Shown here: in pieces, positions 7,380-12,500 of the stretch
Layout of the letters: the number at the start of each line of letters is the position of its first letter
How positions within the stretch are numbered: the stretch's first letter is position 1
Origin: a virus
Length of the DNA stretch: 46,954 nucleotides
IMG/VR virus record: IMGVR_UViG_3300030106_003494
Span: 1-46,954 of that record
Reading direction: 5' to 3' (one strand)
Made by a program: the position numbers and the translations under genes
The notes under the pieces: model-generated
The model's input: the letters and a program-made list of their open reading frames with translations, nothing else
The model's database searches: none
Told to the model about the DNA's origin: nothing

Positions 7380-8453
7380 CTATACCTCCTCCTTAATATT
7401 AATTTGTTTATGACCTTTAATAAATACTGGTTGAAACCATTTAAGTTTCTTTTGAACTCTTTTAGGTCCTTGTGAGATAGTGTGCCAATGTCCTCTCCTC
7501 CAATGTGATCTCTTAGGACTCCCTGCGGTTCTGTCAGAGGGGTCTTTATCTTCTTGATTAGATTGTATTGTTCTAGTAGTAAAGTCTGCTCCAAGCCATT
7601 TTACATTAGGCACATTATTAATCTTTTCAGCAGAGAAACCTTTACTATTTGTTGTTCTATATTTACTTTTAGGTTTTTGTGTCGTAACTATCTCAGGTTC
7701 TTGAGTCATTAAACATAATAGATTAATTACAAACCTATACATTTTTGGTAATGTTTCATTTTGGAAAGCCGAGATACCAGATTCAAACATCTCAATAACT
7801 TCTTTTTTTACATCATCCTTTTTTATGCTAAATGCTAAAGCTTTAAATAAAACTCTATAACCTAATTCATTATCTATAAAGAATTCTTTTGTAGCACATA
7901 ATTGACAACAATCATTTTCTGCAATTGGAATAAAGAAATCATATTGAACTTGCCCTGCTAATTTACCACTATGAACCTGAACAGATATTCCAATATCTTT
8001 TTTACAGATATCTATCCTTTTAACATTTGCACACACATCTTCCCCTAAATCAAAGTCATTAGAAAAGACTACAGTAATTACGGGTAGAACATCTAAACTC
8101 ATTACTCTTTTAATAAATTTAGAATCGTTAGGAGCATCGGTATTAAACAATGAATGAGCTAATGCATCTGTAATGTAATAATTATCAGTCAAAACTTTAC
8201 TAAAACCATGACCTAACGTTGGTGGATTTTTAAAATACTTTTTGTATTGACCACTCCGAATATTGTCGTTATAAGCACTTAAAGTTGCAGCTTGATATAA
8301 CATAAATTTTTGATGACTTGGATAACCATATGGTGCAATTTCACCATCGTATAATCTTATTGCATCTTCTTTAGATATCTTTTCTTCAAAATAAGTATTC
8401 ATTTCCTGAACCATTTTGAGAAAACTCTGTTTATTAGTTAATTTTTTTGTCAT
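7380..8453 (-). CDS. AcrVA2-like protein (357 aa)
   Basis: Seen: residues about 320-357 contain HWRRGHWHTISQGP followed by WFQPVFIKG. Residues about 240-255 read INLLCLMTQEPEIV. Known (from memory): the Cas12a inhibitor AcrVA2 ends with a RRGHWHGYWQG...W.P.FVN segment, and has a similar 'LLWLCVAEPDI' segment before it, in the same order, in a 322-aa protein. The family is widespread in phages and plasmids of hosts without Cas12a. The resemblance in two ordered segments and in length makes membership likely; Cas12a inhibition is not implied. A CCQLC cluster lies near residue 180. The gene starts 3 bases after the preceding stop. Confidence 0.7.
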   Translation of the reverse strand: MTKKLTNKQSFLKMVQEMNTYFEEKISKEDAIRLYDGEIAPYGYPSHQKFMLYQAATLSAYNDNIRSGQYKKYFKNPPTLGHGFSKVLTDNYYITDALAHSLFNTDAPNDSKFIKRVMSLDVLPVITVVFSNDFDLGEDVCANVKRIDICKKDIGISVQVHSGKLAGQVQYDFFIPIAENDCCQLCATKEFFIDNELGYRVLFKALAFSIKKDDVKKEVIEMFESGISAFQNETLPKMYRFVINLLCLMTQEPEIVTTQKPKSKYRTTNSKGFSAEKINNVPNVKWLGADFTTRTIQSNQEDKDPSDRTAGSPKRSHWRRGHWHTISQGPKRVQKKLKWFQPVFIKGHKQINIKEEV

Positions 8454-8455
8454 AA

Positions 8456-8605
8456 TTAATCCTCTATTTTTTTAAGTATTGAATGGACTATCTCTAGTCT
8501 CTCCAAATCAACTTTGTCTAAAGATTTGTATTGTTCATCACAAAGGTTTTCCTCCATGAGAATTTTTCCGATTTCTACTTTGATGTTAGCTAGTTTTGAA
8601 TACAT
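8456..8605 (-). CDS. Hypothetical helical protein (49 aa)
   Basis: ATG 8605 to TAA 8458-8456, ending 3 bases before the AcrVA2-like start, so the two are probably translated together. The product (MYSKLANIKVEIGKILMEEN..., VDLERLEIVHSILKKIED) is two helices. Immediately upstream of the ATG is the first copy of the 41-bp leader repeat. Function unknown; its coupling suggests a partner of the AcrVA2-like protein. Confidence 0.6.
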   Translation of the reverse strand: MYSKLANIKVEIGKILMEENLCDEQYKSLDKVDLERLEIVHSILKKIED

Positions 8606-8607
8606 GG

Positions 8608-8648
8608 TTAATAAATTAATAGTGGTGGCGGGGAAGGCAAGGTGATTA
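8608..8648 (-). repeat. 41-bp leader repeat, copy A
   Basis: Matches 9070-9110 in 39 of 41 positions. On the minus strand it reads TAATCACC, then TGCCTTCCCCGCCACCACT, then TATTAATTTATTAA, ending 2 bases before ATG 8605. The GC-rich core in AT-rich DNA and the fixed place before starts suggest a promoter or translation-control leader. Confidence 0.8.
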
Positions 8649-8665: not shown

Positions 8666-9061
8666 TTAATTTCTGTTTCTATATCTCCCATATCGCTTAC
8701 CATCCTTATATACTTTTAAACATTCATGAACATACTGTCTAGCTACTCCGAACTTTTTAGCTATAGCTGTGACAGTCATACCTTTTCTGTTGTATTCATA
8801 ATAAGTTAAACCTTTTTGTTTTGCACTTATATTTCTTTCACATAATTTTGTACCAATCTCTTGAATTATTAATTGATAAAATTCGATAGGAGAACATTCA
8901 TCTCCAAAATTCATATAGTTAATAGCATCTGCTCCTTTTTGACAAAGATCTTTTGTTTCTTCTGAGACTTCATCCCATGTATAACCCATAGAAATTTTAG
9001 GTTCATTAGATTTATTAGATCTTTTTAATTCTTTTAATTTGTCAGTCCAAGTTTCAGTCAT
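8666..9061 (-). CDS. Helix-turn-helix DNA-binding protein (131 aa)
   Basis: Residues 87-122 (EYNRKGMTVTAIAKKFGVAR, then QYVHECLKVYKDGKR) form a helix-turn-helix like those of sigma/Hin-type proteins, followed by a basic tail (GRYRNRN). The N-terminal 85 residues are helical and mildly acidic. It is likely a phage transcription regulator and a candidate reader of the palindromic sites in this arm. Its start is preceded by the second copy of the 41-bp repeat and TAAAACA. Confidence 0.7.
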   Translation of the reverse strand: MTETWTDKLKELKRSNKSNEPKISMGYTWDEVSEETKDLCQKGADAINYMNFGDECSPIEFYQLIIQEIGTKLCERNISAKQKGLTYYEYNRKGMTVTAIAKKFGVARQYVHECLKVYKDGKRYGRYRNRN

Positions 9062-9069
9062 TGTTTTAG

Positions 9070-9110
9070 TTAATTAATTAATAGTGGTGGCGGGGAAGGC
9101 AGGGTGATTA
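9070..9110 (-). repeat. 41-bp leader repeat, copy B
   Basis: Near-identical to 8608-8648 (two differences). It lies 9 bases before ATG 9061 and reaches 3 bases into the stop codon of the gene at 9108. A weaker third copy at about 9392-9425 (AATAGTGGTGG, then AGG, then TGAT) precedes ATG 9383. Confidence 0.8.
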
Positions 9111-11833: not shown

Positions 11834-11926
11834 GGACATCCCCAGTGGTCGCAATGGATCTAGGCCAAAATTTTACCTTTAAACAGCAAATTCTGGGCTA
11901 GACCTATTGCTATGACTAGGCTGTCC
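11834..11926 (-). other. Structured intergenic element with three hairpins
   Basis: GGACA (11834) can pair with TGTCC (11922-11926). Inside are a long stem from 11859 to 11902 (TCTAG/CTAGA plus nine pairs separated by one mismatch) around a loop with GCTGTTTAAA on minus, and two short flanking hairpins (CCTA...TAGG at 11904-11921 and CC...GG at 11840-11857). The 14317-14397 element has the same order and the same loop sequence. The element begins inside the last codons of the methyltransferase gene. No T run follows, so it is not a simple terminator. Confidence 0.55.
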
Positions 11927-12500
11927 ATTGGTCAGCCATTCCATCGGCTATACCTTGGTAAGTTTTACTTCTAATAGCCCATCTATCCTTTGATGGTGCG
12001 AGGTAATGCATTCTATGTACCTCTTTTCTTGGTAGCTTTGAGATATCTATCATGTTTGTTGGAGTTAGCTTAGGTAATCCTTTAAGCCATAAGCCTGTCT
12101 TCTTAGACTCCCCATGCCCAAACCAGTAAGGTTGAACATATTGACTGGCCTTTCCTAACTTAGACCTCTTTGTCAACGCTCCTACGGGATTCTCAATGCA
12201 TATGCGTGGGCAATCTGCATCCCATATATCCTCTACAAACTTGATAGCAGCTTGCTGCCTACCATCGGCTACCTTTTCAGCCCAGTAACGGCTACCACTT
12301 GCGCTGAGGTGGGTACAAGGTGGATGAGCAATAATGAGATCCCATGATTGACTAGCAATTACTTCAAGACAATCACCTTGAATATGTTTATCACTTGGTA
12401 TGTCTGTAGGTAATAGATCGCATGACCATGCATCCCATCCCTTTTTAGCGAAAGCTTCTCTAACAGTTCCACTAAACTCACACGCTACTAACATTTTCAT
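11916..12500 (-). CDS. C5-cytosine methyltransferase-like protein, short (194 aa)
   Basis: Motif I is MLVACEFSG (residues 3-11), motif IV with the catalytic Cys is HPPCTHLS (Cys62), motif VI is IENPVG (103-107), and a motif-X-like end SKTYQGIADGMADQW is present. These are the Rossmann and catalytic elements of DNA C5-methyltransferases. No target recognition domain (normally a further 100 or more residues) is seen. Similar short proteins are common in phages. It may methylate phage or host DNA non-specifically, or with a partner; catalysis is likely but not certain. It has GAGGAG 8 bases before its ATG and overlaps the 3' structured element. Confidence 0.8.
   Translation of the reverse strand: MKMLVACEFSGTVREAFAKKGWDAWSCDLLPTDIPSDKHIQGDCLEVIASQSWDLIIAHPPCTHLSASGSRYWAEKVADGRQQAAIKFVEDIWDADCPRICIENPVGALTKRSKLGKASQYVQPYWFGHGESKKTGLWLKGLPKLTPTNMIDISKLPRKEVHRMHYLAPSKDRWAIRSKTYQGIADGMADQWTA

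Follow-up and report, generated by a model that had tools for sequence, protein, structure and literature searches.

The closest described relatives of the protein studied here are AcrVA2, an anti-CRISPR of Moraxella (PDB: 7ci1 and 7ci2), and FinQ, an IncI1 plasmid fertility inhibitor that targets the tra genes of F. AcrVA2 is reported to recognise the nascent peptide LSKT at the N-terminus of Cas12a, leading to translation-coupled loss of the Cas12a mRNA, and the degradation machinery that it triggers is described there as unresolved (PMC13131331). FinQ is described as ending transcription of the tra operon at multiple sites in a Rho-independent manner; for its sequence-level account, reviews go back to work from 1989 (PMC8744291). 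Both characterised proteins thus remove specific transcripts. A third relative, ORF43 of Shewanella phage vB_SbaS_Y11, was named AcrVA2-like in a paper that proposed peptide-pocket residues from docking and that described a related Shewanella as having a type I-E system instead of Cas12a.

As references we used AcrVA2 from locus L051:4593-5558, identical to 7ci1 across 322 aligned residues, and FinQ as the 361-aa open frame L010:2234-3316 of an IncI1 plasmid. Aligned with each other, the two share 25% identity across 302 columns (E 2e-19; profile E 1.1e-38), which makes AcrVA2 and FinQ homologs through the greater part of their length. A tblastn search with a Salmonella jumbo-phage member of the family matched 653 plasmid records, many of them annotated as FinQ and 556 typed as conjugative. 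The FinQ likeness in jumbo phages had already been noted by some annotators, and no paper dealing with FinQ and anti-CRISPR together was found in the literature searched, which did not include the AcrVA2 preprint. The RefSeq call for FinQ in pEK204 uses a non-ATG start and falls short of the open frame by about 100 residues at the N-terminus.

The window analysed here is a 46,954-nt stretch of viral DNA (IMG/VR record IMGVR_UViG_3300030106_003494). The gene of interest and its parts are as follows:

7380..8453, minus strand: AcrVA2/FinQ-family gene, an open frame of 357 aa (ATG at 8453, stop at 7380-7382)
7758..8453, minus strand: diverged N-terminal part, residues 1-232, the proposed client-recognition half, conserved within the marine clade
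7383..7757, minus strand: C-terminal module, residues 233-357, conserved and sharing homology with AcrVA2 residues 201-322 and the FinQ C-terminus
7686..7721, minus strand: LLCLMTQEPEIV segment, residues 245-256, at the end of a long helix, aligned with AcrVA2 LLWLCVAEPDIT
7428..7511, minus strand: core motif R315-P342 (RSHWRRGHWHT....GP.R......W..P), containing the invariant positions and forming a small beta hairpin in the AlphaFold2 model

The encoded protein genuinely belongs to the AcrVA2/FinQ family, as a diverged member carried by a marine cyanophage. In a phmmer search of 177,635 distinct PDB sequences, its sole match up to E = 1 was 7ci1 (E = 8.6e-5, residues 218-347). PHROG 6160, the AcrVA2 family, which takes in FinQ and jumbo-phage members, also matches, with residues 231-349 falling on profile positions 203-320 of 322 (E 6.4e-11); AcrVA2 (1.4e-62), FinQ (8.3e-48) and Moraxella, Shewanella, Erwinia, Salmonella and E. 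coli phage relatives match the same profile. When the proteins were split and compared with hhalign, window residues 233-357 and AcrVA2 residues 201-322 gave a probability of 99.2 (E 6.4e-20), and the module matched the FinQ C-terminus with a probability of 96.3. An earlier note, made from the sequence alone, had called the protein AcrVA2-like and had proposed a profile check; the PDB match, PHROG 6160 and the profile comparison bear this out, with a significant match confined to the C-terminal ~125 residues. Pfam and NCBIfam yielded no family above cut-off for the window protein, AcrVA2 or FinQ, and PADLOC gave none. A viral scan with the single window sequence returned no relatives, whereas searching 2.9 million viral contigs with an alignment brought up 76 loci.

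The two segments pointed out in the earlier note lie in the AcrVA2 order. LLCLMTQEPEIV (residues 245-256) closes helix 217-251 of the AlphaFold2 model and is followed by SHWRRGHWH...W.QPVF (residues 316-345), just as AcrVA2 carries LLWLCVAEPDIT and then PHIRRGHWH...WQPAVFV. The two proteins thereby have LL.L...EP(D/E)I and H.RRGHWH...G...W.....V in common within the C-terminal ~120 residues. FinQ is similar in this region, its core KRPHIRRGHWHTYW being nearly the window's KRSHWRRGHWHTIS; it differs in being plasmid-borne and outside the marine clade, and only 41 of its columns align with the marine profile. The window protein has the family's C-terminal H.RR.HWH...G...W..P module, with its many His, Arg and Trp residues, and strands 317-345 are predicted to form a small beta hairpin unit. 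Equivalents of H317, R319, H322, G329 and W339 are invariant in nine of nine phage proteins retrieved without the motif. Since the motif served as the query in the bacterial and viral retrievals, the invariance seen there, unlike that in the nine-protein set, is partly by construction; G329 and W339, which lie outside the search pattern, agree in these family members too.

ORF43 of Y11 resembles the window protein in being phage-borne and in having the C-terminal module, but is far closer to AcrVA2 (39-41% identity). Locating its pocket residues in the window protein proved uninformative: the ten positions are docking-derived, lack conservation even among family members and map mostly to a region that the window protein does not conserve.

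Outside the C-terminal module, sequence similarity to AcrVA2 falls away. The N-terminal part gave no significant profile match to AcrVA2 residues 1-200 in hhalign (probability 5.4%, E 0.007), and an 11-member marine-clade profile aligned with the AcrVA2-clade profile in the C-terminal part alone (probability 98.5, E 1.9e-15). The two halves thus differ in how they are conserved, the C-terminal one family-wide and the N-terminal one within clades only; inside the marine clade, P41, G43, T95, D96, T105 and P124 are retained. The window protein and AcrVA2 are similar in size, and AlphaFold2 models of the two (pLDDT 78.6 and 87.3, respectively) place the main helices and strands in the same order, which suggests full-length kinship at the level of predicted structure. 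However, the AcrVA2 crystal was absent among the best PDB matches listed by Foldseek for the window model, while the AcrVA2 model, run as a control, retrieved it at E 1.4e-53; the overall shape of the window protein may therefore differ from that of AcrVA2. In a library of viral models, the window model matched 12 entries at E <= 0.001, Erwinia jumbo-phage proteins among them, with modest TM-scores of 0.23-0.46. We take it as certain that the window protein and AcrVA2 have the C-terminal module in common, and as probable that the rest of the protein is shared as well, though strongly diverged. The kinship claimed in the earlier note accordingly stands by sequence for the C-terminal ~125 residues and not for the N-terminal ~230, which have diverged beyond detection; the structural comparison that it proposed recovers the order of elements in the AcrVA2 model and not the crystal.

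In a tree of 143 C-terminal modules, 21 marine-type proteins including the window protein form one clade (support 0.997), within which the window protein groups with L011, L012 and L013 (support 0.999). L011 is the nearest relative, at 55% identity across the whole length, followed by L012 and L013 at about 45-47%. The dN/dS values are 0.25-0.36 for the window gene against its nearest relatives (0.36 against L011) and 0.03-0.33 for close pairs; the protein is therefore under purifying selection and its function has been kept. The earlier placement in a marine phage is backed by kinship, since the structural protein and terminase of the window phage are 52% and 67% identical, respectively, to those of Synechococcus phage S-EIV1. 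L011, L012 and L014 sit in phages with the same S-EIV1-like structural protein, and other members of the clade come from marine phages of other kinds, in some cases with DUF5824 as an N-terminal extension. The gene is not present in the type phage S-EIV1, and 17 of the 18 S-EIV1-like contigs examined, several being fragments, lack it; it is accessory and patchily present. An AcrVA2-like module behind an N-terminal extension was seen in L018:4125-5831 and L026:6652-8040, and also in L015, L016, L020, L025, L028 and L029; the extension matches DUF5824 (PF19141) above the curated cut-off in L018 and weakly in L026. Positions 2131-2215 of the window hold a short nucleotide match (85-94%) to the T4-like Prochlorococcus phages P-SSM3, P-SSM4 and P-RSM3, whose genomes are otherwise unrelated to that of the window phage; this too speaks for a marine phage.

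From this phage kinship, the host is likely a marine Synechococcus or Prochlorococcus. For both of these marine cyanobacteria a lack of CRISPR-Cas has been reported (PMC10820777), a setting that differs from that of AcrVA2. A scan of bacterial genomes gave 80 loci with family members from 76 genomes. Among these, the Cas12a model TIGR04330 matched in one, Moraxella lacunata, well above cut-off; with this match as a positive control, none was found in the other 75. Because Cas12a occurs in so few family-bearing genomes and the likely marine hosts are reported without CRISPR, Cas12a inhibition is a special case within the family. An ancestral role broader than Cas12a, as the earlier note had supposed, is well supported by the same two observations, and since the likely hosts of the cyanophage are reported to lack CRISPR, the family probably evolved to silence selected genes, not to fight it. 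Absent from the mechanistic picture in that note was FinQ, which offers the best mechanistic clue. Some bacterial genomes carry several members (L094, L111 and L118 in Azohydromonas australica; L101 and L120 in Blastocatellia), as expected if members are retargeted to different clients.

By analogy with AcrVA2 and FinQ, we read the window protein as a putative target-specific silencer of gene expression, with a probability of about 0.5. Because the C-terminal module is constant across the family and N-terminal conservation is clade-specific, the N-terminal part would serve in recognition and the C-terminal part as effector. Like AcrVA2, the protein would use its variable N-terminal part to recognise one specific client during that client's synthesis, and the His/Arg/Trp module (HWRRGHWH...G...W..P) would bring about loss of the client's mRNA, either by itself or via a host nuclease or the ribosome. 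The client in the cyanophage would not be Cas12a; another gene of the host or of a rival element, most plausibly one that hinders infection, may take its place. The silencer reading is weakened by the description of FinQ as acting through transcription termination, not mRNA decay, by the failure of the window model to find the AcrVA2 crystal, by the unconserved Y11 pocket, by the indirect assignment of the host and by the absence of the gene from S-EIV1.

Somewhat doubtful, in our judgement, is a narrower account in which the protein binds or cleaves nucleic acids and has only the C-terminal module in common with AcrVA2 and FinQ, with no nascent-peptide recognition; it would act on phage or host RNA or DNA, for example by controlling the expression of phage genes or by promoting RNA decay in general. 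It is the module alone that is demonstrably common, and its His, Arg and Trp content fits such an activity, while the marine relatives that are fused to DUF5824 or lie near recombination-type genes (judged by eye) need not imply client-specific silencing. Set against this are the predicted order of structural elements, which follows AcrVA2 throughout, and the action of both characterised members on specific transcripts.

Less probable still is superinfection exclusion in the manner of FinQ, which overlaps with target-specific silencing and differs in that the silenced gene would belong to a rival phage or plasmid, not to the host. FinQ itself shuts down transfer genes on a competing plasmid, the family is frequent on conjugative plasmids (the 556 of 653 records above), and the marine gene is accessory, being found in one of 18 S-EIV1-like contigs; nothing in our data points to a rival-element target, however, and many of the contigs searched are fragments. 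An anti-CRISPR directed at Cas12a or another Cas protein of the phage's host is very improbable, for all the homology of the module to AcrVA2 and the AcrVA2-like name of the Y11 relative, given hosts reported free of CRISPR, Cas12a in a single family-bearing genome of 76 and an unconserved N-terminal part, which makes up most of the AcrVA2 body.

Returning to target-specific silencing, the homology of AcrVA2 and FinQ, the scarcity of Cas12a among family-bearing genomes and the C-terminal-only sharing with the marine proteins lead to the hypothesis of a common effector with exchangeable recognition, which bears on the degradation step of AcrVA2, described as unresolved (PMC13131331). In its widest form, which we put forward tentatively, AcrVA2, FinQ and the marine-phage proteins would be one widespread family of nascent-peptide-guided mRNA silencers, with a conserved C-terminal effector and fast-changing N-terminal recognition, which mobile elements redirect towards genes of defence, competing plasmids or functions of the host; the cyanophage would carry one such silencer into a CRISPR-free host. 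Genes of this kind should not be annotated as anti-CRISPRs, and the label should not be transferred to the window gene.

Upstream of the gene, the window holds two small genes and two copies of a 42-nt repeat:

8456..8605, minus strand: 49-aa ORF directly upstream, its stop 2 nt before the ATG of the 357-aa gene
8607..8648, minus strand: first copy of the 42-nt repeat, directly ahead of the 49-aa ORF
8666..9061, minus strand: 131-aa gene with a weak helix-turn-helix at residues ~87-120 (sub-threshold hits in Pfam and PHROGs)
9069..9110, minus strand: second copy of the 42-nt repeat, directly ahead of the 131-aa gene and 95% identical to the first

The 49-aa ORF ends in a purine-rich GAGGA that could act as the ribosome-binding site of the 357-aa gene, and judging from this arrangement co-translation of the two is plausible. 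The repeat-bearing leader previously described for the ORF is present as the first copy. The suggestion that its product is a partner or regulator did not hold up: no homolog of the ORF was found in 250 fetched loci, the ORF and its leader repeat occur in no other fetched locus, and the proposed survey of neighbours showed that the small genes preceding homologs vary from clade to clade, which speaks against a conserved partner; the repeat likewise lacks support as a component of the system. The 42-nt repeat is GC-rich in an AT-rich genome, and each copy fills the gap ahead of a gene's start codon. Its core is absent from the viral contig collection, and the repeat does not coincide with any promoter-like match; the idea of a structured RNA leader was rejected, as the repeat folds no better than shuffles and has no Rfam match. 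The 131-aa gene, two genes upstream of the 357-aa gene and in the same direction, was considered as an Aca-type regulator; it matches no Pfam or NCBIfam family above cut-off and does not lie beside homologs. Further along the window, a 194-aa ORF (11916-12500, minus strand) with no Pfam match resembles, by eye, a phage DNA methylase-like protein (ACEFSG...AHPPCTHLS...).
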